Part shown: positions 17,101 to 42,221 of the stretch, one piece after another | How positions within the stretch are numbered: the stretch's first letter is position 1 | Layout: every line of letters begins with the position of its first letter | From: Tepidanaerobacter syntrophicus | Lineage (GTDB): Bacteria; Bacillota; Thermosediminibacteria; Thermosediminibacterales; Tepidanaerobacteraceae | Assembly (NCBI RefSeq): GCF_001485475.2 | Contig: NZ_DF977000.1 | Span: 1 to 64,000, forward strand | Length of the DNA: 64,000 nucleotides | Reading direction: 5' to 3' | Notes under the pieces: model-generated | Database searches by the model: none | What the model was told of the DNA's origin: nothing | Seen by the model: the letters and a program-made list of their open reading frames with translations, nothing else | Made by a program: the position numbers and the translations under genes

Positions 17101-17130
17101 AAAAATAAAAAAGAAGGACTCTGTCCTTCT
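17101..17130 (-). terminator. original rplM-rpsI terminator, now displaced
   Basis: On the minus strand: stem AGAAGGAC/GTCCTTCT with a 3-nt loop, then TTTTTTATTTTT. Joining the two flanks of the mobile element puts this hairpin 4-5 bp after the rpsI stop codon, so it was the rpsI terminator. It is now separated from the gene by 24.7 kb. Confidence 0.85.
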
Positions 17131-17132
17131 CT
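17128..17132. repeat. target-site duplication TCTCT (left)
   Basis: TCTCT abuts the left edge of the element and is repeated at 41828-41832 on the right edge. A 5-bp duplication is the Tn7 family hallmark. Confidence 0.9.
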
Positions 17133-17594
17133 TGTTCAGTTACAAATAAGTTTGCTCACGTAGTGACAAAGTTTGCTCGTCTGGTAAGCGAGTGGTTGCA
17201 ATGCTTCTCGCCCATAAGTTACTTTGAGAGACAAAGTTTGCTCGCTGGTTTTATTACCTTAAAAAATATAAAAAAAGATATAAAAAATGAGAAAATGACA
17301 AGCGAGTTTGCTCGTGAGCAGTGAAGAATGACAAAGTTTGCTCGTGGAAAAATTGGAACAATTATATGAGATGTAAGTGCGATATGCATAGGGGAGGTAT
17401 TTACTTATATTTTTATATATATTGATTTTACTGGGCTACGGGGGATTATTGGTTGTTGGATTTCGGGAATGTTTGTGGCGGGGGGATCTCTTTTTGCACA
17501 AATAAAATGCGCCAGGCTGGTTTCCCAGTCTGACGCTCTGTATCTTTCGTGAACAAACTTTGTAATTTTGAACCGACTCTTTTGTAAGTCGACA
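17133..17594. repeat. 462-bp terminal direct repeat, left copy (mini-Tn7-like unit)
   Basis: Begins TGTTCAGTTACAAAT and ends TTTGTAAGTCGACA. One end carries five copies of a TnsB-site-like motif near GACAAAGTTTGCTCG (from about 17142, 17165, 17230, 17297 and 17330). The other end carries two inverted copies (17549-17563 and 17570-17594). The terminal repeats TGTYNANTTACAAA are inverted, so this unit alone has both transposon ends. A hairpin with arms 17509-17520 and 17525-17536 lies inside. There is no convincing gene in it. Confidence 0.92.
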
Positions 17595-18433: not shown

Positions 18434-19027
18434 TTATAAAAAGAAATTCTCCAAACTCTCATCAATCTCTTCCTGAGTCAATCCAATATATCTTCTTGTT
18501 ACATTTTGAGAACTATGATTAAATATCTGCATCAATTTCACTATATCCTTTGTTTCCTGATAATAAAAATATCCAAAACTCTTTCTAAAGGAATGTATAC
18601 CAAAGTTTTCTATTCCTAATTCCTCTGCTACATTTTTAATATATCTATAGGCTTGTACCCTTGTTATATGAGATCTTACTCCATCTCTATTTCTTTGCCT
18701 ACTTGGGAAAAGATATTCGTGATTTTCCATACCAGAAGTATATTTATCTAACTCACTTCGTAATTGAGGGTTAATAGGAAATACTTTAATTTTATTTGTT
18801 TTCTCTTCTCTTAAGGTTATATGGCTTTTATTTCTTACATCTTCTACTTTTAAAGGAATTATATCTCCAATTCTTAATCCAGTATTTAATCCAATAATAC
18901 ATAAGATATAATATTTGTAATTTCTTTTTAGGAGTTCCATTTTAAGTTCCGCAATTTTTTGTCTATCTTTTATTGGCTGAACTAATGCCACAACATCATC
19001 TCCTCTGGAAGTATTTTCTAATCTCAT
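18434..19027 (-). CDS. short tyrosine recombinase
   Basis: A 197-aa protein made almost only of the catalytic domain of the phage integrase/Xer family. It has Arg52 (GLRIGD), a Lys near 76, His145-x-x-Arg148 (HSFR), His171 and the nucleophile Tyr180 (RRYIGL), so the active site looks complete. The N-terminal core-binding domain is missing or very short, as in some plasmid resolvases. The ATG has GAGAG upstream. In this element it could resolve multimers or cointegrates; that role is inference. It is not close to either boundary in the way a normal integrase would be. Confidence 0.88.
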   Translation of the reverse strand: MRLENTSRGDDVVALVQPIKDRQKIAELKMELLKRNYKYYILCIIGLNTGLRIGDIIPLKVEDVRNKSHITLREEKTNKIKVFPINPQLRSELDKYTSGMENHEYLFPSRQRNRDGVRSHITRVQAYRYIKNVAEELGIENFGIHSFRKSFGYFYYQETKDIVKLMQIFNHSSQNVTRRYIGLTQEEIDESLENFFL

Positions 19028-21374: not shown

Positions 21375-24300
21375 TTAGCCTAAAATTTTATTAAAAACTT
21401 TTTCTATGCAATCCTCGTCTTCTAAGAACAATACATTCCTTTTCTCATATTCCATTTTGTTGTTTACTCCATACTTAACTTTAACATCAGAAAAACTTGT
21501 ACCCGACATTATAAATGAGTTTAAAACGATATCCACAGAATTGTCAGTCTTTTGCAGTTGTTTTTCTAATTCTTTGATTGTCTCAAAAAACATTATTTTT
21601 TCATTGTTGATATTTTTATCAAGCATCATAATTCCCTTTGGATCAATGAAATTAATATATTGTTTCTTATCGTTTGCAACCCATAATATAAAATCAGGAT
21701 AAAAGTTCCCTGCTTCAAAAAATCCTATTCCTACCTTAGCCTTGTTGCGGAGTAAGTATAATTTATAGTCAGAAAACAAAGATGGGTTATTATTTACATA
21801 TTCCCTTAATAAATCAATAAATCTTTTTTCATCTTTATTTAATCCAACAGGCCTAACCTCTATTTTAAATCCATCTTTTATACTGACAAGTGGTACATAT
21901 AAATGATTATAATAGTCAAATGCGGTAAACTCAAATTTTGATTGTGGGATTAATTCCTGGTCCCCCTTCAGCATTCCTGATAAATTATGTATAAACCTTT
22001 CAAAACTATCAAAGTCCTCCTTTGAACGGTCATATAGAGTAATTAGATATTCTTTAACCAGATTGTTCTTAATATTATTCTCATTTATTGTTTCATATTT
22101 TAGGTATGGTTGTTCCCAAGCCTTTTTGTGATACTTATAAAATGTATCTATATACTTTTTTAATAAAGACATACAGATGTCTTCAATAACTACAATCTTA
22201 TCAAAACTGTCTAGTTTTAATTCGTTTTCAGGTATATATAAAACATACCAATCTTTGTTGCAAAGTATCTTAATACATTCATCTTTACTTATAATAATAT
22301 TATAATACCCTTTTTCACTTTTATACCTTTGTAACTCGGCTAATACTTCACTCATATCAATAAATGATAAAATATTCTCATATAGATAATCATTATGTTT
22401 ATCGGTAGCAATTTCATTATTATTATTAGATGTTAACGCCTGTACTTTCGAATATACATCATGTTTAATTTTATTTTTGACTATATAATTATAAAAATCT
22501 CCGGTTGGTTCAGTTATAAGCAGCCTTTTAGATTTCTTCTTAAAATTTATATTGTGAGGCAAGGTGATTACCTTTAGATTACTCTTCTTTGCCCTTTCAA
22601 GCCTCTCTTTATACACAGTAGGCAGTTTATACTCCCTAGATACTTTATCAACAGGTACTTCTTCATATTCGAGGAACTGTTTGAAACTTTTCATGTAATC
22701 CGCCCTAACTCCAAATATAGTTAACGTTTCAAGTTTATTAATATATCTAGGTGGCTCCTTCTCTTTCCTAAAGGCTTCACTTCTCTTTAATAAGTTCTTA
22801 TATCCTTTAAGTCTTACTCCTCGACCAAAAAGTTGTATTGCCAGAGAACCTTCTTCACGAGCAAAATTAAAAAATACCATAGTCGAAACACGGTAACTGT
22901 TCCAACCTTCAGTGAATTTCCTTGAACCAACAAGTATATTTATCTTTGATGATTCATCATTTATATTTCTAAATAGACTTTCTGTAATAAATTCATTTGA
23001 ACTAGTTACCATTCCTACCAATTCGCAATTTTTAATTAATTGATTACTTTCGCCAACATTAATAACGCCAAAATATTCATTTTGATCACCTATTTTTAAC
23101 CCAATCTCTCCGTTTACCTGTTTTAAATCTTCAATGTATAATCTCCCCGAAGCATCTGAGTTAAATATTAAATTAAGTATATCTTTATAAAGTGCATCTA
23201 CATCTCCTTTGAATACATCTTGTAAAAATGTAAAGTCATTATAGAATAAATCTCTATTTCCTTGCATTAATCCAGTATCACCATTTAAGACTAATCTAAT
23301 GTTTTCAATGCTTTTCTTGTAATTACTTGTAAATTCATCAATAAAAACTAATATTTTTTGGACATCAGATAAAACTTCCTCTTCTCCTTTTGTTAAATTA
23401 CTTCTTTTATTAACGCTATTACCAACACATACCAATAAAGGTTTTTCTAGATTATATGGCTCATATTCTTTCGAGTATACATTAAAAAGTTTCAATTGTT
23501 GGTAATAAGTAAGTAAACAGCCTATTAGATAAAGTGTATTTTTATTTTCGTTCTCATCTTCCTCCAGATTATATATTCTATATTCTTTTCCATACATATC
23601 GTTGTAGAAATACTTATATGAATAATCGAAAATAATTGATTTTCCATATATATCGACTATACTCTCTTCATCTTTCTTAATTTTTTCTCCTTTTAATGCC
23701 TGTTTAAAAGTTGCAGAATACTCAAAAACAAATCCCTCTTCTGATAGCCGATTTCTATAATCAAGCCAAACCTCTCCACCAAGACCTTTATGACCTTCAT
23801 CTACAAATAAAACATTATTTTTCAAAAAAGAATCTACTGATACAGTTTTAATCTTTCCTTCTTCCTTTAATTTATTAATATCTATAATGATAACAGCATC
23901 TTCATTGTACAATAAATCATTATGAAATAACTCATAAGGGATATTCGATAATTCCATTTCTTCCATATGCTGATTAGATAAACCTTCATTTGGAGTAAGC
24001 ACAATATACCGATTAATTTCAAAATCAGGGTTAATCTTTTTGGCTTTCTTATAATAATGCTGAAATTGCAAAATATTAATGTGCATTATATATGTTTTTC
24101 CGCTTCCTGTAGCACACATATACGCAAGCCTGCTAAGATTTTCCTTTGTATACTCTTTAATCGGTTGCTGTGGATTCTTCTCATTATATTCGTTTACAAA
24201 TTGGTTTAATTCATCCAAAAAATTCTCAGTATCAAAAAAATACTTATCTAAAAAGATTTCAGTAAAAAGTAATGCAATATATTGGTAATATTTAAGTTTG

Positions 24301-24578
24301 ATGCCTCCTCTTTTCTCACCAATTCGTTTGACATGTCTATATAAATTCTGATCATATTCAAGTAATTTATCCTTGGATATATTGCTGTATTTTGCAAATT
24401 TAGGAGAAATATAGTAGTAATAGTATGAAATGTTATCTTCATCATATCCTTCTAAATCATCATCTTTAATTCCATTATCAATATTAGAAATACTATCTTC
24501 CCCGATAAGTAAGAGGAAATATTTGTTAAGAATTAATCTCTCATTTAAATCTTGATTCTTTACTGATTTCCTAGGCAC
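21375..24578 (-). CDS. res: type III-like restriction enzyme, Res subunit
   Basis: A 1067-aa SF2 helicase-nuclease. Motif I ATGSGKT at 156-162, motif II DEGH at 260-263, motif III SAT at 288-290, motif V-like GSRKFTEGWN and motif VI QLFGRGVRLKG show the translocase. Near the C-terminus PDFILW...INFIDPKG fits a PD-(D/E)xK nuclease core. It would cut DNA that lacks methylation by the partner Mod. The start is GTG, with AGGAGGG overlapping the end of mod (14-bp gap), so they are translated as a unit. It is somewhat longer than classical Res (about 970 aa). Confidence 0.88.
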   Translation of the reverse strand: MPRKSVKNQDLNERLILNKYFLLLIGEDSISNIDNGIKDDDLEGYDEDNISYYYYYISPKFAKYSNISKDKLLEYDQNLYRHVKRIGEKRGGIKLKYYQYIALLFTEIFLDKYFFDTENFLDELNQFVNEYNEKNPQQPIKEYTKENLSRLAYMCATGSGKTYIMHINILQFQHYYKKAKKINPDFEINRYIVLTPNEGLSNQHMEEMELSNIPYELFHNDLLYNEDAVIIIDINKLKEEGKIKTVSVDSFLKNNVLFVDEGHKGLGGEVWLDYRNRLSEEGFVFEYSATFKQALKGEKIKKDEESIVDIYGKSIIFDYSYKYFYNDMYGKEYRIYNLEEDENENKNTLYLIGCLLTYYQQLKLFNVYSKEYEPYNLEKPLLVCVGNSVNKRSNLTKGEEEVLSDVQKILVFIDEFTSNYKKSIENIRLVLNGDTGLMQGNRDLFYNDFTFLQDVFKGDVDALYKDILNLIFNSDASGRLYIEDLKQVNGEIGLKIGDQNEYFGVINVGESNQLIKNCELVGMVTSSNEFITESLFRNINDESSKINILVGSRKFTEGWNSYRVSTMVFFNFAREEGSLAIQLFGRGVRLKGYKNLLKRSEAFRKEKEPPRYINKLETLTIFGVRADYMKSFKQFLEYEEVPVDKVSREYKLPTVYKERLERAKKSNLKVITLPHNINFKKKSKRLLITEPTGDFYNYIVKNKIKHDVYSKVQALTSNNNNEIATDKHNDYLYENILSFIDMSEVLAELQRYKSEKGYYNIIISKDECIKILCNKDWYVLYIPENELKLDSFDKIVVIEDICMSLLKKYIDTFYKYHKKAWEQPYLKYETINENNIKNNLVKEYLITLYDRSKEDFDSFERFIHNLSGMLKGDQELIPQSKFEFTAFDYYNHLYVPLVSIKDGFKIEVRPVGLNKDEKRFIDLLREYVNNNPSLFSDYKLYLLRNKAKVGIGFFEAGNFYPDFILWVANDKKQYINFIDPKGIMMLDKNINNEKIMFFETIKELEKQLQKTDNSVDIVLNSFIMSGTSFSDVKVKYGVNNKMEYEKRNVLFLEDEDCIEKVFNKILG

Positions 24579-24592
24579 TATACTTCCCTCCT

Positions 24593-27500
24593 TTATATAT
24601 CCTTATAATCAAACATTTTATTTTTGAACACAGTTTCTATTAAGTTGACCTTCCAATTTTCACCATTTTTACGGTAATTTTCAAGATTGTTATCTCCGTT
24701 TACAAAATAAACATCATATTTTCTATTTTTATTTTTGTGAAAATGATTGAAAAAAGCATCTAGTGCTGCATTATCTTTAATGGCATCGCCTGTAATATTT
24801 CTCCAAATAACAAGAGCAGACTGCCCATTTGGTAATTTACCTTCAACAGTTTTAAAACAATATTCGCCATCCTCTTCACTTTCAAGTAATACAGCCCCAT
24901 CATATGTATCAGGCTCTTTTTCATTATAAGGTATTGGACGAGTATTAAACCTTAAAATTCTACTTTGCGATACCACATCCAAACCTATTAAATAATTGAA
25001 AGTTTCAACAAGGTCTATCGTTTTATTTGTCATTACATTTCTTGTTGTGATTCGCATTTTATAATCAAATGGATTTGCAAAGTTGTCAAGATTTAACACA
25101 CTATCTTTACTTTCCATATCGAACATATAGTAAACAAGATACTCCTCAAATAGATTTTTATTGCTATCAAATATGCTCTGTTGTTGCTCGTTACGTGTGA
25201 AATTAATATTATTAAGAGTATCTTCATAACTCTCCAAACGGATATATTTAACAATCTGGCTTATACCTGTATCTCTATTTGTAGGTGAACCATCTTTCCA
25301 GTCTTTTGAATAAATAACCTTTTTTATACGAGGTAAAGTAACTGTATTGAAATAATTGCCCATTTCAACAAGTATATATTTTCGATTACCGTTTTCTTTG
25401 TCTTCACGATTCAAATCAATAACAGCATGAGCAGTTGTTCCTGAGCCTGCAAAATAGTCCAATATAATAGAATTATTATTTGATACAGCATAAATGCAAT
25501 CTTTTACTGTATAAACAGACTTAGGAAACTGGAAAAGGTCCTTAGGAAAATTCATAGATGTTAATACTTTAGTTCCATAATCTCCAGCATTATACAAAGG
25601 AGAATACCACATTGTCTTAAATTGCTCTGAATATTTAGGCATAAATATTTGTAAATTTGATTTCCTGGATTCTTCAATTACTAAATATTCAAAAATTTCA
25701 TTTATACTTTGAAATGCATACCTCCATTTTCTTTCAATTAAATTATCATCAATAGGATAAATGGCTATAATTGGATTTTCTTCTGTTGCAGTAAAAATTT
25801 GTTTATCCTTATTGTTATTTACATACATTTCTACATTACCACTCTTTATTACTACATTCGGACTCTGTGGATGATAATCATCATCACACACATCTCCACA
25901 ACCAATTATCTTACCATTCTGCACATATATCGGATAAAAGCAATTTGCAGCATCTGTTCTAAGAGACTCACTTCCCCAGTTTCTAAAGTTTGAGTATTCC
26001 CATTCATTTTCTGGCAACAACTTACTATTTAGTTTTTTCAACTTATTCGAAATAGAAAAGACCGCAAAATCATTAGAATAAGAAAAATGATCCCCTTGTG
26101 TACCTTTCTTGTTATGTTCAACCGCTACAGAAACCATGTCATTATTAGGATGAAGTTGTCTTAATAATTCTACTAGTCTCGTATGCTCATATTTATCTAT
26201 AGCAACAATTGTTGAACCATCTTCAGTATTAAACTTTTTGCTAAGTGTCAATCTATTTTCCATAAGTGAAAGCCAAGTGGAATGTTTGAAGTTATTTTTG
26301 TACACAATTTCACTTGAAGGTGAATTATAAGGCGGATCAATATATACACATTGTACTTTCCCTTTATATTTTTCTTCTAATAACTTTAAAGCCTGAAAAT
26401 TTTCACTATGTATTAATAATCCATTTGTTTTTTCATCCAAATTATCAATGCTTTCAATAAGTCTCTCCTTAAAATCTCTATCAAAATGTTTTGTATCAAG
26501 TACTAAGTTTCTATTTTGCTTTAAAAAATCCACAGTTAATGGAGTTGAAAATGAAATTTGTTGAACATCATCAATTGCAATTTGTTCATTGTTATTTTTA
26601 ATTTCATCTATTTTATAGTATTCAATCCATTCATCTATTTGTTTTTGGTTAGCGACAATCTCAGAATAAAATTTCTCATCAATTAAATCTAGAGTAATAC
26701 ACCAATTAGTTTCCACAACAAATTTCTTTTTCAGCCATAATTTCTTTTGAAAATCTTCAATTTGCGCTAAAAAGTCAATAATGATTTCACCAACATTTTT
26801 GATTGCTCGTATTTTACATAAATAACTTTCTACTCGCTCTTCTTTTTCAGTTCCGATATCATCTAACTTCATTACCTCCGATTTAATATAAAAATCTAGT
26901 TCACGCTTTAAGAACTTTTTGAGGTCTTTATGAATAAAGTAATCAAACGTATTTTTAGCAACATAAGTTGTAAGATGTTTCTCTAGAAGAGTTCTATTTT
27001 TATCCTTTTCAGTTGGTGCTGGAATTAGTAGTGCATTTAAGTATTTACTATCTAATTTTGAAATTTCACTCTTGATTTTTTCATAAGCAGATTTTACAAG
27101 AGTATCTTGCTTAGCAGTATGTACTTTGAATTCAAAGTACATATTGATCTCATCATTACCTACTTCAAGGAAATTTTCATCTAACAAAACAAACCTGCGT
27201 TTTTCATCTTTGGCTTCCTTATTGTTATCTTGTTCCGTAGAAACTTCCACTAATCTAAAATTTACTGTTATCCCTTGAGAAACAAATGAGTAATTCTTAA
27301 AATACTCACTTGTCTTTATATAGTATTGATCATGATTTGCCCAGTATAGTTTAACTTCTTCCCCCTCATAAGGAATAGCATATACCCCTTCCTTATATCT
27401 TCTTTTAGATATAAAATCTCCTTCATCATAATATCGGCTAAAGAAGTCATAAAGTTTTGAATATACATCTGTTTCAATTTCTGCCAAACTTTTGCCACTT

Positions 27501-27808
27501 TCTAAGGATTTTTTTAATTCCATATACTCCTTTTTCTTCTCACTAGTTTCAGGTAATTCTTCAATAGATACTCCTAATTCATTACATGATTCCTCAATTT
27601 TTTTCATTTTTTTCCTAATTTCCGAGTTATCTTTTGCATAAGATGATAAGATCTCTTTAACTTTAATTGGTAAATCATTATCAATGAAATTTTCAATTTC
27701 ATTCTTACGTAGTTTCATTATACGATAAATTCCGAAATCTAAATCTTCTTTATCCATTTCAAACATCTCTTTAAGCAAATCTGTAAATCTTTTTAATTTA
27801 TCACTCAT
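24593..27808 (-). CDS. mod: type III-like adenine methyltransferase, Mod subunit
   Basis: A 1071-aa DNA N6-adenine methyltransferase of the beta class. DPPY (motif IV) is at about 491-494 and the SAM motif FAGSG (ILDYFAGSGTT) follows near 790, which is the beta-class order. Between them lies a long target-recognition region. The first 480 residues are extra compared with standard Mod proteins (600-700 aa); I cannot assign this part beyond a helical, charged N-terminus. ATG 27808 is 7 bp from GGAGG and is preferred to 27814. It acts with Res downstream for defence, and could also stabilise the element by post-segregational killing. Confidence 0.87.
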   Translation of the reverse strand: MSDKLKRFTDLLKEMFEMDKEDLDFGIYRIMKLRKNEIENFIDNDLPIKVKEILSSYAKDNSEIRKKMKKIEESCNELGVSIEELPETSEKKKEYMELKKSLESGKSLAEIETDVYSKLYDFFSRYYDEGDFISKRRYKEGVYAIPYEGEEVKLYWANHDQYYIKTSEYFKNYSFVSQGITVNFRLVEVSTEQDNNKEAKDEKRRFVLLDENFLEVGNDEINMYFEFKVHTAKQDTLVKSAYEKIKSEISKLDSKYLNALLIPAPTEKDKNRTLLEKHLTTYVAKNTFDYFIHKDLKKFLKRELDFYIKSEVMKLDDIGTEKEERVESYLCKIRAIKNVGEIIIDFLAQIEDFQKKLWLKKKFVVETNWCITLDLIDEKFYSEIVANQKQIDEWIEYYKIDEIKNNNEQIAIDDVQQISFSTPLTVDFLKQNRNLVLDTKHFDRDFKERLIESIDNLDEKTNGLLIHSENFQALKLLEEKYKGKVQCVYIDPPYNSPSSEIVYKNNFKHSTWLSLMENRLTLSKKFNTEDGSTIVAIDKYEHTRLVELLRQLHPNNDMVSVAVEHNKKGTQGDHFSYSNDFAVFSISNKLKKLNSKLLPENEWEYSNFRNWGSESLRTDAANCFYPIYVQNGKIIGCGDVCDDDYHPQSPNVVIKSGNVEMYVNNNKDKQIFTATEENPIIAIYPIDDNLIERKWRYAFQSINEIFEYLVIEESRKSNLQIFMPKYSEQFKTMWYSPLYNAGDYGTKVLTSMNFPKDLFQFPKSVYTVKDCIYAVSNNNSIILDYFAGSGTTAHAVIDLNREDKENGNRKYILVEMGNYFNTVTLPRIKKVIYSKDWKDGSPTNRDTGISQIVKYIRLESYEDTLNNINFTRNEQQQSIFDSNKNLFEEYLVYYMFDMESKDSVLNLDNFANPFDYKMRITTRNVMTNKTIDLVETFNYLIGLDVVSQSRILRFNTRPIPYNEKEPDTYDGAVLLESEEDGEYCFKTVEGKLPNGQSALVIWRNITGDAIKDNAALDAFFNHFHKNKNRKYDVYFVNGDNNLENYRKNGENWKVNLIETVFKNKMFDYKDI

Positions 27809-27875
27809 TCTCATGCCTCCTATATATTAATTTGAACTAATAATCTCCTATTTCATTATTAACTATTTGCAAAAA

Positions 27876-29384: not shown

Positions 29385-29417
29385 AGAAAAAACCGGCCTG
29401 TCAATGGCCAGTTTTTA
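29385..29417 (-). terminator. terminator of parM-parR
   Basis: On the minus strand: stem AACTGGCC / GGCCGGTT (one U-G pair) followed by TTTTTTCTATTTT. It overlaps the parR stop codon. Confidence 0.75.
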
Positions 29418-29705
29418 GATACTGTCAAATATTTGGAAGACCTCATCAGGAATTTGGCTTCCTTCTGTAAAATCGCAATGCTTATCTGCTGTAAGTTTCA
29501 TCTCTTTGATAACTTCTCTAAGTGCCCTTTTAATCCTTTTTAGTTCCCTCTCCTCTTGGGTGACACCTTCATAGGCTAATACGGCTTTGATAATATAGGC
29601 AGTTTTCTGTCTTTTTGACCTGATAATATTGTAAGCAATCCGATCATTTTCTCTTTGTAGGTTGAAAGATAGGTTCAATCTTTTAATTTCATCCAAGAAT
29701 ATCAC
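29415..29705 (-). CDS. parR: ParR-like DNA-binding partner
   Basis: A 96-aa protein whose GTG start overlaps the parM stop by 4 bp. Residues 11-46 (LSFNLQ...KRQKTAYIIKAVLAY) fit a ribbon-helix-helix fold: a beta strand, then two helices with the basic KRQKTAYI turn. Size, fold and place after parM match ParR adaptors that bind centromere repeats and link them to ParM filaments. The C-terminal 45 residues are charged and end acidic, as expected for the ParM-contact tail. Assignment rests on fold pattern and context. Confidence 0.72.
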   Translation of the reverse strand: MIFLDEIKRLNLSFNLQRENDRIAYNIIRSKRQKTAYIIKAVLAYEGVTQEERELKRIKRALREVIKEMKLTADKHCDFTEGSQIPDEVFQIFDSI

Positions 29706-30619
29706 CTGTCCCTACTAACTGCCTGTTTTGCCAGAAGTTCAAAGCCTTTTACATTTGCAAAACTATCTAAAACTTCTACATATCCTATTTTAGGACTATT
29801 TTCAATGTGTTTTTGCAAAAGCAATGAACCTCCTCCAACAAATATTGTCGGATTTATTTTCATCTCAAAGCCGTACTCTTTCAATCTATCCAACAGTTCT
29901 TCAACGTATATTTGTGTTTTGTCTTCAATTAATGCCTTAATATTTTCATTTTGAAAAAATGAGATGTTTTCTCCTAGAATTGTATCCTCAATCTGCTCCT
30001 CATGAATTTCTATCCCTAAAGACAGGATTTCCTGTTTTATGGAGTTTAATAGAGTTACAATCCCAGTAGTTAAACTTATGCAAGATTTAATGTTTAAAAG
30101 CCCTTTTTCAACAGTGAAAACATCAATGGTATATCCGCCAATATCTACAACATTAAGTCTTGATACATCCTTATAGTGAGTAAAATGAGGCATTATCGCT
30201 GCATAGCCCTGAGGATAAACATATGCATCTTTAATTGACACTTCATATTGCTTCCCTCCATAGGTAAATGATATATTATCTCTTATAAAATACTCTCTAA
30301 ATTTATCCTTTTGTTTTCCATAATACATAATAGGCAAGCCACATGCTAAAATGATCTCTCCCTTATTAACCCCTTGATACTTCTTCTCTAGTACTTCTGC
30401 AATGGCAGGCAATGATAGAATAAAGAAGTTGTCGTTTACAGTCTTATCAACCATTACAGGAAATCTTTCACCTGAGATAGAGTAATACTTGCCTTCAAAT
30501 ACCAATAGTCTTTCTTTTGTAATAGGTATGGTGCTTGAAACAGTAAAGCCCGAATTATACTGATTAACAATGCTTTTTATTGCCTTGTTTCCGTGGTCTA
30601 TTCCTATAATATAACCCAT
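29702..30619 (-). CDS. parM: ParM/StbA-type actin-like segregation ATPase
   Basis: A 305-aa actin-fold protein. Phosphate 1 GIDHGNKAIKS is at residues 5-15, phosphate 2 VVDIGGYTIDVF near 167, and the adenosine motif FVGGGSLLL near 265. It belongs to the plasmid ParM/Alp group and not to MreB or DnaK. Such proteins form filaments that push sister plasmids apart. ATG with AGGAGGG upstream. Its leader holds two hairpins (30651-30689; 30751-30805). A plasmid partition gene inside a chromosomal element is unusual and points to an extrachromosomal stage. Confidence 0.88.
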   Translation of the reverse strand: MGYIIGIDHGNKAIKSIVNQYNSGFTVSSTIPITKERLLVFEGKYYSISGERFPVMVDKTVNDNFFILSLPAIAEVLEKKYQGVNKGEIILACGLPIMYYGKQKDKFREYFIRDNISFTYGGKQYEVSIKDAYVYPQGYAAIMPHFTHYKDVSRLNVVDIGGYTIDVFTVEKGLLNIKSCISLTTGIVTLLNSIKQEILSLGIEIHEEQIEDTILGENISFFQNENIKALIEDKTQIYVEELLDRLKEYGFEMKINPTIFVGGGSLLLQKHIENSPKIGYVEVLDSFANVKGFELLAKQAVSRDR

Positions 30620-31851: not shown

Positions 31852-34500
31852 CTATATCCTGATAAATTTTTTTACCTCTCTTTGTGTTAGTGAAATGAAC
31901 TCTGCTCCAGGGACGGGATAATTACTTAAGACCAGAACTTTACAATGTTCCGTTATAGCCCTAGCCCTTCCTACAGTTTGAACAAGTTCAGACTCTATCA
32001 TATAAAATTGGATTTCCCGTAATAAATCATTGCTGCTGTAAGTATTGAAGTAAAAGTTGTAGTTTCCCCTTGAAACAGGCTGATACATTACCTTGCTTTC
32101 ATTTAGCCTTACATCAAGGCCTAAAACACTTGCAAATAGCAGATAACTATAGGGGTTAATATGGGGAGTTCCTATTACAGTGATATTTTGACCTTTTAGA
32201 TTATCACGCCCCGCACTATTCCAAAATGACATACTTGGTTCACTTATATCATTAAAATAGCCCCTATAAGTGATAACCTTACTATTGGGGTTATATCTAT
32301 TTATTAAAGCATTTGCAATATCCATCATTTCTTTATTATTTCTATGAATGGATAATTTACTAAAGGCTCTTATAGGAACTTGCCAAATCTCTCCTATGTG
32401 TTCCACATCCCCAATATCATAAAATTTCATATTTTGACCGAAAACCATTTTATAAATCTTTTCATTGGCAGTTGCACTAAAAATAATTACCTTTTTATCA
32501 GGCAAATCTCTTTTGTTTATAAAAAGTACCTGCTCATTACCATTTCGCCCAGTCACTTTGACAAAATGACTTGAATTTAAAAATCCTAGCACATTTGTCG
32601 TTATTAGGTCATTTTTTACAACTAATTTTTCAACTTCTTTTGCACAAAGCATAAAATAGTTTGGTGTCTTTAGTACCATTCCTTCAGGTGTTTCGGTAAT
32701 TAACTTAAACATAAAATCGGTTAACTTCTTTAAAGGCGAAAATTCCGGATCTAAATACACCAGTTGGCTAAGTATAGCCATGTCTTGTATTGACATAGAT
32801 GAAATTGGGAACATTCCATTTAGAACAATATCTTCATCTATTATTAGAGTATCATTGAAGTCCTTTTCAAAAAATATTCTTTGGTGAGTAGTTAAGATAG
32901 TTTGGTTCTCAGATTTTTTTACTCGCCTCAAGTCCTTAATATATTGTGCTATGACTTCATTTTCCTTTGCTAATTGTCTTAAATACATATTTGCTCCTTT
33001 AAAAGAGCCTGTATCATAGAGCCTATCTAACTTATTGCGTTTTTCAGGTTCAATATCAGGAAGTTGTGGTACAACATAATGGTGTACTCCTGCTTTTGTC
33101 AATCTCTCGCTTACCTCGTCCTTTAATTTATGTGTAGGCACTGCTATCGTCAATTTATTATCTATACAAGCATTTATGTATTCTTCAGTTTTCCCTAACC
33201 CTGCCGGTGCCTTTATAACATAAATCCCCTTTTGTGGAGAGGCAATTATTTTACTAACAATATTAGATAATTCTTTTCTTGCCTCTTCTATACTTTTAGT
33301 TTTTCTTTTACCAACTACTTGAATTCTTCCCTTGAATAATTTTCCTTGTTCTATCATATTAATTCCATGTTTACAGTCTTTAATAAATGGACAATAACTT
33401 TCGCACCTAGAAGGAGCATATTTACCCTTAAGAATTTGATTCTTCATAACCAACCAACTATAGTTTTTCACTTTATATTCTTCACGGCTGTTTAGAATCT
33501 TATCTACTTTCGTTACTCCACCTTTTATTTTCAAAAGGTTGGACATGAGACCAAACATTTCATTGTGGTGTAACCAATACTCGCCATCTATTGCTTCCCG
33601 GTATAATTGACAATTTTTATATAGGTTTTCAAAGGGGTAATCCTTTATAAGATATGTCTCAGTATTTTCCTTCTTAATATCAAAACGGGGGGCAAAGTCA
33701 TTTTCCTTTTCAAAAAAACAATCCTGCGTATTATTGTAACAGAAATAGATTACATACCCCATATGACTAAAAAGTGTACTATTATATATATTATTAATAA
33801 AGGACTTACACTTTTTAGTCATTGATACATAAACATTGCTACTATTAACTTCAGGCATATCTTTTTCATCATGAAACGTAAAAAACTTTGGATAACCATT
33901 CTCCATGTCAATTCCAATATCTCTGCAAAAATTATACATGTTTCTCGATGCATTAGTACTATTTCTAATTACTGAACATGCAGCAAATATAAGATTCGGT
34001 ATTGATTCTACATATGAAAAGTTTTCATAAATAACTTCCCTGCCACCGTATATTATTCTCGAAGGATCCCTTGTTTCTGTTTTAGCCTGTGGAAAAACTT
34101 CCAACAGTGATCTAATTACTAGGTTGCGAACCCTGATATCCTGAATCACCTCATCCATAACGAAAACCATTTTAAACCCACTATCTGAATTAAAGGGCGT
34201 GTATATAAATGAAGGGAATAGATTAACCCTTTCACAAGTATCTAACACATTTTCCAGCGAATCATTTTCAATATCAACAACAAATATTTGTTGACTTATC
34301 CAGTTCTTAATACTTCTCTGCCCATTTTTAAAAACAGATGGTGAATAAGTTTTGCCATTTGGTATTATTATGCTTTTAGCAAAATCCTTTACAGAAATTT
34401 CTTTGACATGACATCCAATTCGTGCTGCTATTTTTGCAATCTCTTCTTCTGTCGGCTTCTTACTAAACTTTTGAGTATCTAAACATAATTTAATCATCAT
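31852..34500 (-). CDS. primase-helicase-like replication protein
   Basis: An 882-aa protein. The N-terminal part (about 1-170) resembles an archaeo-eukaryotic-type primase-polymerase: FVVDIEND at 73-80 (acidic pair), then a FIYTPFNSDSGFKMVFVMDE segment and DPSRIIYGG. Cysteines at 366, 370 and 376 may bind metal. A helicase domain follows: Walker A APAGLGKT (about 431-438), Walker B IIDED (about 553-557) and motif III FSAT. PrimPol-helicase fusions are replication proteins of plasmids and integrative elements. ATG 34500 is 7 bp from AAAGGAGG and preferred over upstream in-frame starts. The exact family is not certain. Confidence 0.7.
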   Translation of the reverse strand: MMIKLCLDTQKFSKKPTEEEIAKIAARIGCHVKEISVKDFAKSIIIPNGKTYSPSVFKNGQRSIKNWISQQIFVVDIENDSLENVLDTCERVNLFPSFIYTPFNSDSGFKMVFVMDEVIQDIRVRNLVIRSLLEVFPQAKTETRDPSRIIYGGREVIYENFSYVESIPNLIFAACSVIRNSTNASRNMYNFCRDIGIDMENGYPKFFTFHDEKDMPEVNSSNVYVSMTKKCKSFINNIYNSTLFSHMGYVIYFCYNNTQDCFFEKENDFAPRFDIKKENTETYLIKDYPFENLYKNCQLYREAIDGEYWLHHNEMFGLMSNLLKIKGGVTKVDKILNSREEYKVKNYSWLVMKNQILKGKYAPSRCESYCPFIKDCKHGINMIEQGKLFKGRIQVVGKRKTKSIEEARKELSNIVSKIIASPQKGIYVIKAPAGLGKTEEYINACIDNKLTIAVPTHKLKDEVSERLTKAGVHHYVVPQLPDIEPEKRNKLDRLYDTGSFKGANMYLRQLAKENEVIAQYIKDLRRVKKSENQTILTTHQRIFFEKDFNDTLIIDEDIVLNGMFPISSMSIQDMAILSQLVYLDPEFSPLKKLTDFMFKLITETPEGMVLKTPNYFMLCAKEVEKLVVKNDLITTNVLGFLNSSHFVKVTGRNGNEQVLFINKRDLPDKKVIIFSATANEKIYKMVFGQNMKFYDIGDVEHIGEIWQVPIRAFSKLSIHRNNKEMMDIANALINRYNPNSKVITYRGYFNDISEPSMSFWNSAGRDNLKGQNITVIGTPHINPYSYLLFASVLGLDVRLNESKVMYQPVSRGNYNFYFNTYSSNDLLREIQFYMIESELVQTVGRARAITEHCKVLVLSNYPVPGAEFISLTQREVKKFIRI

Positions 34501-34642
34501 TTTCATGCCTCCTTTGTTATTAAACAAAGGGGCATGCTGTATTTTAGTGTTTTGGTATGTATTTTAAATGTGCTTTATTAAGATACTTTCTTTATGTTAT
34601 ATTAAGTCTTTTTATTAGTTTTATTGTTGCCCCTGATTTGAT

Positions 34643-35673: not shown

Positions 35674-36951
35674 TTACTGATTTAATTGCTTTGTAACATT
35701 CAACCGCTTTATAAAATCGTAAACAGTAGTATGGCTTGTCCCCATTAATTTTGCAACCGTTGGCACGCTGTTATACTTTAATAGCCGTATTAATTCCTCT
35801 CTCCAATAATCCCCGAAATCCACAATCCTAGAATACCTGTATCTATCTTCTATACTCTTATCTGGACCACGTCGCAAATAAGAAAAACCACATTCTGGAC
35901 AGGTAAAATATCCTATTGGACTCTTGGTTTTATAATTATTTTTTATTTCTACATTCTCAATTATATGTTTTTTATACTGTTTGCAAACAGGATTTAAACA
36001 CGGATATGGTCCTTTCCCAAAAGGTAGGTATCCTACATTTTGATTAAATAACACTTCTGGTGATAGACCTAAAAATCTCATAAATAATATATGTTTTAAT
36101 GGATCTTCGATAGTTGCTTTATTCCATCCCATTTTTAAAAGCCAATTACTGTTATTAGTCTTCCTAATTGTATTGTGAGTCATCTGAAGTATCTCACTGC
36201 CCCAAAAGGTTTCAAAATCAGTAATAAGATTTTTCTGGCGTAAACCTCCATTCACTGTAGCATACTCTAATATCTTTAACTGATTTAGATACTGCTCTTT
36301 TATTTTTGTTTTAATTTCAGGATTATTCAAAATCCAGTTCATATCCTCTGCAATAATCAGTAATTTTTCATAGGTCTTTGGCTCATACACAACCTCAGTT
36401 TCAACAACACAGTTTCTTTCCGTTGCTGCTATATATTTATATTTATTGTCCTCAAATGATACACTGCTATTATAAATAGGTATTTTATGGTGAGGACAAA
36501 TATAGATGCCTCTTATCTGATGAACCCTATGCCAATATAATTCGCCATATCTCTCCATATCTTCTTTATTGCACTTTGGACAAAATCTTAGAAATTTATT
36601 TTCAGCCAGTGGGTTTATTATTCCTGTTATTTTGTTGTATATTTCAACATCCCCATGCAACATATACCGTCTAATTATTCCCCTGTTCTCAAGGCTTAAA
36701 AAGACTGTATAATACGGAAATAAGGTATGTTCAAGTATTAGCCTATCTACATCAAAAGGACTGTTTAAAGGCATATTTCGGACTAAATTTGCTAATAATG
36801 TTGGGAATTCCAGGCTACAAACTATACGCTTTACATTAAACAGATCCCTGGCAGTTTCACTTCCATTAAAATTTGGACTTTTTTCATGATATCTGGCAAA
36901 AACACTATATAGTATTTCATCTGGATACGGTGTAGGAAAAAAAGTCATCAT
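35674..36951 (-). CDS. tnsD: TniQ/TnsD target-selection protein
   Basis: A 425-aa TniQ-family protein. The N-terminus FFPTPYPDEILYSVFARYH is characteristic. A CPKC...H...CPHH zinc module lies at about residues 124-155, a second Cys set (CLNPVC...CPEC) around 315-350, and a C-terminal HTH (TVAKLMGTSHTTVYDFIKRL). The long C-terminal half is what distinguishes TnsD, which binds a fixed chromosomal site, from short TniQ adaptors. The inferred site is the 3' end of rpsI. Its ATG overlaps the tnsC stop (ATGA), so it is translationally coupled. Confidence 0.93.
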   Translation of the reverse strand: MMTFFPTPYPDEILYSVFARYHEKSPNFNGSETARDLFNVKRIVCSLEFPTLLANLVRNMPLNSPFDVDRLILEHTLFPYYTVFLSLENRGIIRRYMLHGDVEIYNKITGIINPLAENKFLRFCPKCNKEDMERYGELYWHRVHQIRGIYICPHHKIPIYNSSVSFEDNKYKYIAATERNCVVETEVVYEPKTYEKLLIIAEDMNWILNNPEIKTKIKEQYLNQLKILEYATVNGGLRQKNLITDFETFWGSEILQMTHNTIRKTNNSNWLLKMGWNKATIEDPLKHILFMRFLGLSPEVLFNQNVGYLPFGKGPYPCLNPVCKQYKKHIIENVEIKNNYKTKSPIGYFTCPECGFSYLRRGPDKSIEDRYRYSRIVDFGDYWREELIRLLKYNSVPTVAKLMGTSHTTVYDFIKRLNVTKQLNQ

Positions 36952-38330
36952 ATAACTTCAAATCCTTTAATTAACCCATGATTTTTCAATATATCATAAG
37001 CCGTTAGCCCTTCCCCCTTATTCTGCACCATAACTCTAATATCATTTTCTGCACTTGGAGGTATCTTCTTGGTTTTAACTTTTATTTGCTTTTCATTGTT
37101 TTCTACTACAGATGGCCTGGAAGTGGTAGGTATTATAAACCTATTCCGATTAGGCAATTCATAACTTATATCAATATTCCCAGTATATATATCAGGATAT
37201 CTTGCTACTTCCATTACATTACCTGTTCTTAATGCATTTAGCATTGGCTTTACCAACCTTAAACTTTCGTCAGCAACTTGTTTGATTAATTCAGGAGTTA
37301 TAATCTCAACCCCACTTGAAATTGCCTTTGTTTGAGCAAGGGCATAAAGTTTCACTGTTATATCAATTATTCCTTGGGATTGATCATATAGGGTATCTAT
37401 TAATTCATCAGTCAGAGCAGTAGGCCTTTTCGTCCATTGATAGCCCCATATTGCGTTTACAAGTAGTTTGAAGTTAATATCATTATCTAACCTTTCAAAT
37501 ACCAAATCTCCTTGTCCTGAACCCCTTCTTGCCTGTCGGAACTTCCCTTGCAATACTCCCATAGCCTCAGGAGTTCCTATTAATAATACTGGTAAGCCAA
37601 TAGTGTTAACCAGAGTAACAAAAAAATTCAGCATCCTATCGGCTCCTCCAGACTTAGACTTGCTAAGGTTTTGTATCTCATCAATTACTAAAAGCCCTAA
37701 TGAAATATTTTTAGCAATATTACTCATGGCAACGAGCATATTATCAACTGAAAGTTTACCACTACCAAATCGTGAATAATAGTCTGTCCCTAATATCTCA
37801 TCAACCTTGCTAAAAAATGATAGGCAAAGTCCTTTAATGCTTCCATCGTAGGAGCATTCAAGTCTTAAATATACTACCTGATATCGTGATAGTGGGATAT
37901 CTTTATATTTCGAGTGAACGATTACTTGTGGATACATTGATAATATTCTATTCACAACTGTTGTTTTCCCCATACCTGATACTCCAAGTAAAGTAAAGGA
38001 GCCTGCAGTGCTACGATAATTGTTTGAAACAAATGACTTCTCCAATACATTTCTTGCTACATAACCCTGTCTTATAACCCTACTAATTCTGCTTTCCAAA
38101 TCTAAATGAATCATTAGCGGCTGAAAGACATCATAAAGACGTCCCACTAGATGGGCTCTATATTGATTATCTAACTGTCTTTCTTCTTTATTATAGGGAG
38201 GAAAATTTGCTAACTTTGATACTACCTCTTCAGAAGATGTGATTTGAGGCAATGCCTCTATAAATGGATTACCTTTATATTCTGAAATAATCTGCTCTTT
38301 GTATTGGGCATTATGTATCAAATCCAGCAC
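36948..38330 (-). CDS. tnsC: TnsC AAA+ transposition regulator
   Basis: A 460-aa AAA+ ATPase that links the target selector to the transposase. Walker A GVSGMGKTT is at 116-124 and Walker B LLVIDEIQ at 213-220. The GTG start has AAGGG 8 bp upstream and lies inside the tnsB end (20-bp overlap). Shorter than Tn7 TnsC (555 aa) but complete across the ATPase core, with a C-terminal extension that in Tn7 contacts TnsA. Confidence 0.93.
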   Translation of the reverse strand: MLDLIHNAQYKEQIISEYKGNPFIEALPQITSSEEVVSKLANFPPYNKEERQLDNQYRAHLVGRLYDVFQPLMIHLDLESRISRVIRQGYVARNVLEKSFVSNNYRSTAGSFTLLGVSGMGKTTVVNRILSMYPQVIVHSKYKDIPLSRYQVVYLRLECSYDGSIKGLCLSFFSKVDEILGTDYYSRFGSGKLSVDNMLVAMSNIAKNISLGLLVIDEIQNLSKSKSGGADRMLNFFVTLVNTIGLPVLLIGTPEAMGVLQGKFRQARRGSGQGDLVFERLDNDINFKLLVNAIWGYQWTKRPTALTDELIDTLYDQSQGIIDITVKLYALAQTKAISSGVEIITPELIKQVADESLRLVKPMLNALRTGNVMEVARYPDIYTGNIDISYELPNRNRFIIPTTSRPSVVENNEKQIKVKTKKIPPSAENDIRVMVQNKGEGLTAYDILKNHGLIKGFEVI

Positions 38331-40374
38331 GGTCTTTTCCCTTCTTCTGTGCCTTTAATAGTAATTCGACCAAATTTTGCTCGGCATTACCATAGGCTTT
38401 TTCTTCAACTACTATATTTGGTTCTTCTGATCTTATTTCGATAATATTTTGTTTCCTCTCCTGCTGCTTCTCAAAATTGCGATTATCTCTGATATTCTGA
38501 ATGCGTCTCTTTTTGCTTATGCCTTCTTCAACTTCATTTTTTGTCTCTTCTTTCGCTTGTTCAATTATTTCTTCTATGTCATTTAATAAGTCTATTTTAT
38601 TTTGCAATTCTGCTTTTTTTGAGGCTTTTGCCTGCATTTTTTCATATTCCATTAGATAAGTTACTTCTTCAATAGATTTTTCTTTATATCTTGACTGATG
38701 TTCTAATAAAAAACACTTATCAAATTTTCTCCCATCTTCATACTTGATATAAATAAAACTCATATCCCTTGGATCATATGATATGTCAACTTTCCAAGAT
38801 CCATTGTTTCTTGCTTTCTCGAACCATCGTTCTTTTAATGAGGTTTTAGAACCAAATAGCATCCCTTTAAACTTAATCCCGTGCTGTGTCACAGTTGCTT
38901 TGTCTCTTGGCAGTAGATTTAATTTCAATAAATCTTCATCAACAGTTCTTAACCTTCCTGTTCTATTAGCAACACCCCATTCCCAGATTAACTTGGGTAT
39001 TGGTTCTACACCATCTGCAATCATATCTTCGCTTCTGGTATAGTTAGATAAATAGTGATGATTATTATGATACAATACACATTTTATTATAATTTGAGTA
39101 AACTGCCTTAAATCAAGGGCTGCTGAAAGTCTGTAATCTTGCTCTCCTCTTTCACGATATTGACTTTTAATTGCACCGGGCATGAAAGGCTTGGTATGTT
39201 GGTTTATAGTATTAAAATACCTCTCTATGATACCCTTCATGTCACCTCTGTAAGGGCTAGTATTTAATATTTTTATTCCAAATGCTGATATTAAAGATTC
39301 TATGTTTTCCCCTTCCAATTCTCCTCTATCTGCAATAATTGCTTCAGGCAGGGTGCTGCAGTAATTCCACTCATCATTGCCAATCTCTATACCGTACTTC
39401 CTGCAAAAGGATACTTTGTCTGACGCAGCATTAATTAATGCAATACTCGCTCCAATCCAACTAGGCCCTTCCAAAGATATATTAATTCCTACGACACAAC
39501 GTGAAAACACATCCATAACAGTATAAATAACAGGCCTTCCTATAATCCAATTCCGATTATATTGGGATACTAAATAAACATCTCCTACTGTTGCATCTAT
39601 TTGAAATATTGCTCCTGGTCCAAATGCTTCTTCAGTAGAAGATCCTGTAAGCCCCCTATGTTGTAATTCATATTGCTTTGGACTTTGACGAGTAGATACT
39701 TCTTTTTTAATGCTTCTCTCCTTATTAAACCAATATCTGAATTGCCTTAATGTAGGAATGGCATCATTTACCACCCCATTTTCACTAAAGTATTCCTTGA
39801 TCATAAGTTCATAGGTTAATGTTAAAGTCTTTCTTGAAGAATTGTAATAAAACCTATTAAGTGCTGTATTAAAAATCTTTATCGTTTCGGGTGTAATGAC
39901 AAAAGTATTATTTTTTTCCTTGTTTCCTTGTTTCCCGCCACAATTATGATAATCAGGAAGTAAAGAGTTTTTGTGCATACCTCTCTGCCAAAACCGTTTT
40001 AAATATCTCATTACAGTTGCTTCATGCACATTATAAACGTATTCTCTGACAAGTTTAGCCCTCTTTTCAGCAATGTAAATATCAGGCTCAATTGCAACAA
40101 TCTCTTTAATGGCATTATAGGCCTTATCTCTTATGGCCTTATGTTTAGGTGGGATAGCCTCTTCATCTTTGATAATCATATATGGTTCATTCTCCAAAAC
40201 ATGTATAGTGCCATCATTTAACCCACTCTGAATAAATGTTTCTGAAACTGTAATAGGCATTGAGTTACCATAAATATCAATTAGATAGATGATATCTTTA
40301 TAGTAATACAGTATTCGGTAATATATTTTGCCTTGACTTGTTTCGTATAAGATTACACTATTGATTGGAAGCAT
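38311..40374 (-). CDS. tnsB: TnsB DDE transposase
   Basis: A 687-aa retroviral-integrase-fold transposase that binds the element ends, nicks 3' ends and joins them to the target. The catalytic triad is intact: Asp260 (FQIDAT), Asp349 (IADRGEL) and Glu384 (KGIIERYF), matching Tn7 D273, D361 and E396. The C-terminus is a charged coiled segment. ATG 40374 is used; tnsA and tnsB overlap by 17 bp. No sign of decay. Confidence 0.95.
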   Translation of the reverse strand: MLPINSVILYETSQGKIYYRILYYYKDIIYLIDIYGNSMPITVSETFIQSGLNDGTIHVLENEPYMIIKDEEAIPPKHKAIRDKAYNAIKEIVAIEPDIYIAEKRAKLVREYVYNVHEATVMRYLKRFWQRGMHKNSLLPDYHNCGGKQGNKEKNNTFVITPETIKIFNTALNRFYYNSSRKTLTLTYELMIKEYFSENGVVNDAIPTLRQFRYWFNKERSIKKEVSTRQSPKQYELQHRGLTGSSTEEAFGPGAIFQIDATVGDVYLVSQYNRNWIIGRPVIYTVMDVFSRCVVGINISLEGPSWIGASIALINAASDKVSFCRKYGIEIGNDEWNYCSTLPEAIIADRGELEGENIESLISAFGIKILNTSPYRGDMKGIIERYFNTINQHTKPFMPGAIKSQYRERGEQDYRLSAALDLRQFTQIIIKCVLYHNNHHYLSNYTRSEDMIADGVEPIPKLIWEWGVANRTGRLRTVDEDLLKLNLLPRDKATVTQHGIKFKGMLFGSKTSLKERWFEKARNNGSWKVDISYDPRDMSFIYIKYEDGRKFDKCFLLEHQSRYKEKSIEEVTYLMEYEKMQAKASKKAELQNKIDLLNDIEEIIEQAKEETKNEVEEGISKKRRIQNIRDNRNFEKQQERKQNIIEIRSEEPNIVVEEKAYGNAEQNLVELLLKAQKKGKDRAGFDT

Positions 40375-41179
40375 ACCTAGCACCCCAATCAATAATAATT
40401 TTAGGACGACTTTCTGTTATATCTATTAATTCATTCATATCAATGTAAATATGTTTAGATGCTAGAAGGTATTTAAAAATGAATAAGCCTGTTCCATCTG
40501 ATACATTATTTTCTTTATCAAAGTCAGAAGTTATTTTTCTGATTGAATGTTTATTATCTCTAAATTTATCAATTAGAATGTTGCAATAATTCTCTAATGA
40601 ATTTTCTGTTAAGCCTCTTTCTTCATAGGTATACAAACTTGAGTGTATCCACTCTATGTTTTTTACCATTTTAGTAGGTATTTCTTTTTGGGTAATTATG
40701 CCAAAATCAATTTGTTTTGCTGCCCAATATCTTCTTTCTATTTCCAGTCTTTCTAGCACCGACTTTTTCCCTAACTCACTCGATGATTTTACTGTCCTTG
40801 CAATATATTTGTGATTTCGTAAAGTTAGTAGAAATGTAGTTGTTAGTATATATGGAGGCTCTTTATTAGTAAAAAACTCTTGTTTAAGGTCTTTATTGTC
40901 TTTTACCACCTCTACTAAATCTAAAAGTGGATAATGTTCTCTAATATCTACTATTTCATCATCCCATTCAAACATATAAAAACATCTGGTTTGAATATCT
41001 GAAAAGAAATGATGTATTCTGTTTGTCTTCCAGCCTTTTATGCGTGACACCCTACCATTTGACGGGAAGTCTTGTATGGATAACCAAGGCTTATAGGAGG
41101 CTAATTGACCTGCACCACGGTTTTCAGACAGGAATCTTTTATACTTTGCCATAGTCCAAGAAGTATCTCTTTTGGCCAT
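40358..41179 (-). CDS. tnsA: TnsA endonuclease homologue, catalytic residues lost
   Basis: A 273-aa protein, the same length as Tn7 TnsA, aligning without gaps over the first 86 residues (PWLSIQDFPSNGR, KTNRIHHFFSDI, DIREHYPLL). In Tn7 the nuclease uses Glu63, Asp114 and Lys132. Here residue 63 is Gln (SDIQ; codon CAA), the Asp114 position is Thr115 (TTTF; ACA), and the Lys is kept (Lys131, TVKS). So two metal-binding acids are gone and the domain should not cut DNA. The C-terminal TnsC-binding half (LERLEIERRYW) looks sound, so it may still act as an adaptor. ATG 41179 with GGAAGG upstream. Confidence 0.93.
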   Translation of the reverse strand: MAKRDTSWTMAKYKRFLSENRGAGQLASYKPWLSIQDFPSNGRVSRIKGWKTNRIHHFFSDIQTRCFYMFEWDDEIVDIREHYPLLDLVEVVKDNKDLKQEFFTNKEPPYILTTTFLLTLRNHKYIARTVKSSSELGKKSVLERLEIERRYWAAKQIDFGIITQKEIPTKMVKNIEWIHSSLYTYEERGLTENSLENYCNILIDKFRDNKHSIRKITSDFDKENNVSDGTGLFIFKYLLASKHIYIDMNELIDITESRPKIIIDWGARYASNQ

Positions 41180-41214
41180 ATAAACCTTCCTTTCTTTCAT
41201 ACTTCTTGGATGTG

Positions 41215-41365: not shown

Positions 41366-41827
41366 TGTTCAGTTACAAATAAGTTTGCTCACGTAGTGAC
41401 AAAGTTTGCTCGTCTGGTAAGCGAGTGGTTGCAATGCTTCTCGCCCATAAGTTACTTTGAGAGACAAAGTTTGCTCGCTGGTTTTATTACCTTAAAAAAT
41501 ATAAAAAAAGATATAAAAAATGAGAAAATGACAAGCGAGTTTGCTCGTGAGCAGTGAAGAATGACAAAGTTTGCTCGTGGAAAAATTGGAACAATTATAT
41601 GAGATGTAAGTGCGATATGCATAGGGGAGGTATTTACTTATATTTTTATATATATTGATTTTACTGGGCTACGGGGGATTATTGGTTGTTGGATTTCGGG
41701 AATGTTTGTGGCGGGGGGATCTCTTTTTGCACAAATAAAATGCGCCAGGCTGGTTTCCCAGTCTGACGCTCTGTATCTTTCGTGAACAAACTTTGTAATT
41801 TTGAACCGACTCTTTTGTAAGTCGACA
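41366..41827. repeat. 462-bp terminal direct repeat, right copy
   Basis: Same orientation as the left copy, and I find no difference over 462 bp (constant offset 24,233). It begins after TACTA, with no duplication there, and ends against TCTCT at rpsI. The hairpin at 41742-41769 faces the incoming rpsI transcript and is followed by ATTTTATTTG on the minus strand, so it may replace the lost rpsI terminator. Confidence 0.92.
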
Positions 41828-41832
41828 TCTCT
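41828..41832. repeat. target-site duplication TCTCT (right)
   Basis: Matches 17128-17132. Its last base is also the last base of the rpsI stop codon. Confidence 0.9.
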
Positions 41833-42221
41833 TACCTCTTTGAAAATTGTGGAGCGCGGCGAGCTTTTTTAAGACCGTATTTCTTTCTTTCCGTCATACG
41901 AGGATCTCTTGTTAAGTATCCTTCCTTTTTAAGAATAGGCCTAAAATCGCCATCGATTTTTAAAAGAGCGCGGGCTATGCCATGGCGGATTGCGCCTGCC
42001 TGACCTGTATAACCTCCGCCTTTTACGCTTGCAATAACGTCAAATTCATCTAATCCATTGATTTTCTCTAATGGTCTCTTTACTTCGACTTTTAGCGTTT
42101 CAAATCCGAAGTATTCATCGATTGGTTTCTTATTTACGATTATCTTGCCAGTTCCCGGCATAATCCAAACTTTTGCAACTGATGTTTTTCTTCTACCGGT
42201 AGCAAGGACTGCTTGCTTCAT
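41832..42221 (-). CDS. rpsI: 30S ribosomal protein S9
   Basis: A 129-aa S9, whose C-terminal tail reaches the P-site tRNA. The family ending RRAPQFSKR is intact, so the insertion did not change the protein. It is the last gene of rplM-rpsI (17 bp after rplM). The mobile element lies directly at its stop codon, which suggests its conserved 3' coding end is the TnsD recognition site. Confidence 0.97.

Follow-up and report, generated by a model that had tools for sequence, protein, structure and literature searches.

The window, the 64,000-nucleotide stretch of Tepidanaerobacter syntrophicus DNA analysed here, carries a tnsABCD gene set on its minus strand next to an intact rpsI ORF (41832-42221). 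The tnsA gene (40358-41200) and tnsB (38311-40392) overlap, and are accompanied by tnsC (36948-38330) and a tnsD/TniQ target selector (35674-36951) whose use of the rpsI site is inferred from position. TnsB matches Protein Data Bank entry 7pik (E 4e-108) and presents intact DDE residues opposite those of Tn7 TnsB (in the motifs IDAT, ADRGE and GIIE), and the Walker A and B motifs of TnsC are intact.

Either side of the tns region lie two 462-bp copies of one sequence, a far copy (copy 1, 17133-17594, plus strand) and a near copy that adjoins rpsI (copy 2, 41366-41827, plus strand), which are 100% identical and in direct orientation. Each copy starts with TGTTCAG, ends with GTCGACA and holds TnsB-type repeats (AAAGTTTGYTC / GAACAAACTTT) in both orientations, indicating that the 462-bp unit is a complete mini-transposon with left and right ends but no gene. 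The pentamer TCTCT is found only outside the pair, before copy 1 (17128-17132) and after copy 2 (41828-41832, touching the rpsI stop codon), as expected of a target-site duplication (TSD); the inner junctions (CAATC and TACTA) lack a TSD. At the predicted junction the site is uninterrupted in two genomes of the same genus. The direct-repeat structure mentioned in an earlier note on this sequence is therefore real and exact, with the refinement that the repeat is a complete mini-transposon and that the tns genes lie outside it. The locus meets the criteria for a Tn7-like element in combining tnsB and tnsC with tnsA and TnsD/TniQ, and in having TGT...ACA ends, arrays of TnsB sites and a 5-bp TSD at an attachment site. 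It does not meet the criterion that the tns genes be enclosed by one inverted pair of left and right ends: here they sit between two direct mini-transposon copies, and every mini-transposon has both ends and no genes.

The Tn7-like TnsA frame begins at 41179 (MAKRDTSW) on the minus strand, the plus strand of 40358-41179 being filled with stop codons. A phmmer comparison aligns residues 1-212 with Tn7 TnsA (1f1z/1t0f; E 1.6e-34), both Pfam TnsA domains pass the cut-off (N domain E 1e-12, C domain E 3e-21), and an AlphaFold2 model (pLDDT 86) finds the same entries, 1t0f/1f1z, as its best solved structures (E 3e-20). Within this fold the active site is altered. The window sequence SDIQ aligns without gaps to SDLE63 of Tn7, placing Gln at Glu63; TTTF lies opposite STDF, so that Asp114 is replaced by Thr115 (an offset of one); and Lys132 is retained as K131. 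The protein thus fails the E63/D114/K132 PD-(D/E)xK criterion of the cut-and-paste Tn7 family and is judged nuclease-dead, by sequence only and with no enzyme assay. The earlier note had made the same three residue assignments, and had described TnsB as intact and the overlap of tnsA with tnsB as maintained; the alignment confirms the residues and the DDE motifs, and the overlap is seen in the coordinates. Its suggestion that TnsA is kept as a bridge between TnsB and TnsC is unproven, as no match to the TnsA-binding tail of Tn7 TnsC was recognisable in the window TnsC sequence. The Gln130 position is also Thr in the window protein, but we rejected this as part of the active-site loss because active relatives likewise have Thr or Ser there.

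The 23.8 kb between the copies (17595-41365), which we refer to as the body, lies outside the mini-transposon ends and is plasmid-like. A ParM/Alp7A-type actin (29702-30619, minus strand), assigned by sequence matches to plasmid partition, has relatives in the plasmid collection that are ParM/StbA wherever annotated. Right after it a small ORF (29415-29705, minus strand) occupies the position of ParR, its function being inferred from that position; the two genes are kept together in FC7, Tissierella pigra and G082. An 891-amino-acid protein (31852-34527, minus strand), common to the window and FC7, has an N terminus related to proteins of small plasmids and is putatively helicase/primase-like, on weak evidence. 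A tyrosine recombinase (18434-19027, minus strand; Phage_integrase E 1e-22, phrog_216), with a homologue in the T. pigra element, is a candidate resolvase whose activity is inferred. The cargo includes a methylase and helicase pair (21375-27814, minus strand; N6/N4 methylase 24593-27814, ResIII helicase 21375-24578) that resembles a type III restriction-modification system; genes of a restriction or defence-like type are present in other bodies too. Two different bodies share at their far end a gene pair of about 1100 and 445 amino acids (T. pigra C36:54020-58686 and G590:C1:1228809-1233442). The first of the two looks kinase-like at its start, and the pair might be a defence module.

Partition and replication-type genes recur in related bodies. 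ParM-type actins are present in those of the window, FC7, T. pigra and G082, with a ParM fragment in G110; D5_N/DUF5906 helicase or Toprim primase proteins are found in T. pigra, G296 and G421; and recombinases, of inferred activity, are of the tyrosine type in the window, T. pigra, G296 and G421 and a serine resolvase in G082. Genes of this kind would suit an integrative plasmid, although neither an origin nor an autonomous circle has been shown. Neither the plasmid nor the viral collections yielded a free circular form of the clade: mini-transposon DNA had no match in the plasmid collection, the best TnsA match there was 43% identical and no free plasmid of the clade appeared, and scanning viral_contigs with an alignment of the dead clade returned no relatives.

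TnsA homologues gathered by whole-genome searches fall into two sets. The Glu/Asp/Lys triad is intact in Tn7 and in eight relatives at 31-41% identity, whereas all closer relatives whose sequence was read have Ser or Thr at the Asp114 position (FC7, T. pigra, G082, G110, G296, G421, G429, G432, G433 and a second G590 copy). Gln replaces Glu63 in the window, FC7, T. pigra, G082 and the second G590 copy, but Glu63 is retained in G110, G296, G421, G429, G432 and G433, which argues that loss of Asp114 is the shared event and loss of Glu63 secondary. In a tree of ten dead sequences (the window included) and nine active ones (the eight relatives and Tn7), the dead rows fall on one side of a single branch with support 100/99. 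The loss of two nuclease residues described in the earlier note is thereby refined: the Asp114 substitution is clade-wide and defines the clade, and the Glu63 substitution affects only part of it and does not. The second G590 copy (Q63, Thr at Asp114) lies at another site of the same genome (L163, G590:C1:770763-771563).

The dead clade occurs in several bacterial groups and its tnsA is under strong purifying selection. Between members, dN/dS is 0.06-0.16 for the whole gene, and 0.05-0.07 for the nuclease domain compared with 0.09-0.21 for the C-terminal domain. Loss of the active site is therefore not local decay, the simple pseudogene reading is rejected on these ratios, and the gene is selected, as the earlier note had proposed. 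Selection is strongest in the dead nuclease domain, suggesting that this domain is conserved for something other than cutting. Had catalysis alone been lost, one would expect it to change faster than the C-terminal domain; the opposite is seen. In two members, G433 and G590, tnsA is broken by stop codons, and it is possible that TnsA is dispensable.

The architecture of the window recurs across the clade, with mini-transposons of 0.35-1.4 kb inserted at rpsI or glmS. At rpsI, T. pigra has copies that are 98.1% identical (TSD ATTAT; on two contigs), G590 copies that are 97.8% identical (TSD CTTTT) and FC7, a draft scaffold with Ns, copies only 82% alike. At glmS, G296 has a 353-bp mini-transposon (98.6%; TSD GTTAT), G421 one of 342 bp (99.7%; TSD match only 4/5) and G082 a 1179-bp repeat (100%; TSD CCCAT). 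G110 has a 1440-bp repeat (99.7%) that includes a cargo gene and whose outer boundary is unresolved. The arrangement TSD-Tn-donor-Tn-TSD that serves as the criterion for replicative Tn7-like insertion is met in the window, T. pigra, G590, G296 and G082. We left G432 out of the clean set, as it has several old, rearranged insertions; the G429 contig ends inside the mini-transposon and gives no flank information, and the G175 ends are unresolved. The earlier note had asked whether the clade always shows direct-repeat ends, and nearly every resolvable member does. Since several of the genomes are assembled as single-contig chromosomes, misassembly is an unlikely source of the repeats.

The near and far copies within one element are more alike than copies from other elements, and from one element to another the mini-transposons diverge by at least several percent. 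In G082 the repeat (C1:205844-207022 and 238802-239980) is a tandem array of three mini-transposons, two full-length and one shortened, spaced by CCCAT/CCTAT, and this array is present twice as one block at 100% identity. We propose that replication at each integration accounts for both the likeness within elements and the block duplication. A further partial mini-transposon lies outside the G082 array, and the locus as a whole looks like the trace of one insertion after another at glmS.

Relatives with the intact triad do not show this architecture: no end-type direct repeats flank tnsA in the regions of these genomes that could be read, and the repeats of G122 and G327 are short and inverted, as in classical Tn7 elements. 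Long direct repeats do flank tnsA in the active relatives G149 and G078, but these are not transposon ends, consisting of a duplicated small gene and an IS-type transposase gene that we take to be IS110-like. Since the dead rows form one clade, the association between dead TnsA and architecture counts as one evolutionary transition and not as many independent tests.

Mini-transposons occur in many genomes, also without a body. Solo copies lacking tns genes are present at both rpsI and glmS, and 22 of the 23 mini-bearing genomes scanned gave no TnsA hit. One such genome, G678, has a solo 462-bp mini-transposon at rpsI whose flanking ACCAA duplication is perfect (L135, G678:C1:1484894-1485355); further ORFs adjoining it (1480000-1484400) resemble another island. 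Tandem mini-transposons with 5-6 bp spacers are found in G071, G398, G421, G082 and FC7, and we propose that in these cases the same site received insertions more than once and that the body was lost afterwards. Mini-transposon pairs with body-type inner flanks occur in G398 (contigs C2 and C12) and G423 (1848001-1849791), again in genomes without TnsA; these are probably non-autonomous or deleted derivatives that were moved in trans.

We consider it likely (probability about 0.82) that the locus is a plasmid-like replicon integrated by Tn7-type replicative transposition through its mini-transposon, and that the dead TnsA is the cause. The dead site, its clade and selection, the repeat and TSD structure, the empty site and the scars are seen directly in the sequence, and the donor, inferred to be a circular plasmid with one mini-transposon, is not. 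The mobile unit recognised by TnsB would be the 462-bp plasmid-borne mini-transposon, with tnsABCD outside it. TnsD would locate the end of rpsI, TnsC would recruit TnsAB, and TnsB would cut and join only the 3' ends, the 5' ends remaining uncut by TnsA because Asp114 has been lost. Replication across the 462 bp, also inferred, would then yield a cointegrate with the order TSD, mini-transposon, whole plasmid, mini-transposon, TSD. Later recombination between the two mini-transposons, by the tyrosine or serine recombinase or by RecA, may free the plasmid and leave one mini-transposon as a scar; this release, like the free circular form, is inferred. We propose that an active TnsA would move the gene-less mini-transposon alone, and that the system therefore takes its own genes along only because TnsA is dead.

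Published work on TnsA gives this reading a precedent. TnsA cuts the 5' ends, and when it is not functional transposition produces cointegrates in which the transposon is duplicated and the donor backbone embedded (PMC11406308). In a V. cholerae system the single active-site mutation D90A in TnsA raised cointegrates to more than 95%, the backbone of the plasmid being inserted between two copies of the mini-Tn (PMC8188705); tnsA loss and resolvases are a subject of PMC8649781. The central claim of the earlier note, that a selected, nuclease-dead TnsA explains the direct repeats, is thus supported by the clade, the repeats, the selection and the D90A precedent, with the absence of 5' cleavage still inferred.

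The most serious alternative is a two-step route of Campbell type, in which a solo mini-transposon already resides at rpsI or glmS and the plasmid enters by a crossover between mini-transposons, either homologous through RecA or mediated by a recombinase. The final end structure would be identical, and both the solo mini-transposons without tns genes at the two attachment sites and the recombinases encoded in the bodies are compatible with it. We nevertheless regard this route as unlikely. The resident mini-transposon would itself have needed TnsABCD to arrive, a step that already produces a cointegrate if TnsA is dead, and the selected, conserved tnsABCD genes would have little use. Moreover, crossover with an unrelated mini-transposon usually leaves a mosaic, whereas in both the window and G082 the two copies match along the full unit (100% identity) and clustered differences between copies are seen only in T. 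pigra. A composite transposon, in which the outermost left and right ends move the whole 24.7 kb with the inner ends as passengers and the loss of TnsA catalysis is unrelated, would predict the TSD on the outside and the empty site just as well. It is made very improbable by near and far copies that resemble each other more closely than they do the corresponding copies of other elements, by the single mini-transposon with its own TSD in G678, by the inner flanks without TSD and by the block duplication of the G082 array.

The two remaining alternatives concern TnsA itself, and we give little credence to either. Were the protein simply decaying and its substitutions drift, the stop codons in two members would be explained, but not a nuclease-domain dN/dS of 0.05-0.07, nor Ser or Thr at the Asp114 position in every member of a clade spread over several bacterial groups. 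Residual cutting through other acidic residues is suggested by the retained fold and by the presence of K132 and often E63. Against it, the dead clade has no newly conserved acidic residue beside the Asp114 position, and cut-and-paste would move the mini-transposon alone and not give the observed structures.

Cointegrate formation through a dead TnsA, our preferred reading, can be extended to a bolder one that, taken as a whole, we consider more likely than not. Here loss of TnsA catalysis would have founded a lineage in which a transposon became a site-specific plasmid integration system. The transposase would serve as an integrase acting through a gene-less mini-transposon, and the plasmid would enter rpsI or glmS as a cointegrate and exit by recombination between mini-transposons, leaving a scar per cycle. 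The dead nuclease domain would be selected for a non-catalytic job, a role that remains inferred. This makes it testable why a dead TnsA is kept, whether for targeting, for coupling TnsB to TnsC or for protecting 5' ends. It is also relevant to engineered CASTs, in which control of cointegrates by TnsA is a practical problem. Surveys that define Tn7-like elements by one inverted end pair, or replicative ones by the absence of tnsA, could miss this class.

The arrangement is undescribed in the open-access literature that we searched, subscription papers being outside that search, and it stands a fair chance of being ranked by specialists as an integrative element of a new class. With Tn7 it shares TnsA, TnsB, TnsC and TnsD homologues, a TnsA-type fold, a 5-bp TSD and insertion behind a conserved gene, which in part of the dead clade is glmS, the site of attTn7. 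It differs in the loss of Asp114, in tns genes that lie outside the ends, in a directly repeated mini-transposon of 0.35-1.4 kb and in what we read as cointegrate insertion where Tn7 moves by cut-and-paste. TnsA mutants of CRISPR-Tn (Vch D90A) and Tn7 likewise give cointegrates with a duplicated mini-Tn and embedded plasmid backbone (PMC8188705), but they are laboratory-made, whereas the clade described here is natural and selected. Type V-K CAST and Tn5053/Tn402 elements, which are TnsA-less and replicative, resemble our proposal in the absence of 5' cutting and in the cointegrate product, and Tn5053-type elements have a resolvase, as do several of the bodies here if the inferred activity is correct; in those elements, however, tnsA is absent and the transposase genes lie between the ends, whereas here a dead tnsA is kept and the genes are outside. 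In IS26 translocatable units and pseudo-compound transposons, a circle with one short mobile unit gives a unit-body-unit structure by replicative transposition; the present system differs in a unit that lacks a transposase, in site-specific targeting by TnsD and in its transposase family. The ingredients are therefore known, and what is new is the combination of a dead but selected TnsA, gene-less transposon ends borne by a plasmid and a site-specific cointegrate as the normal integrated state.
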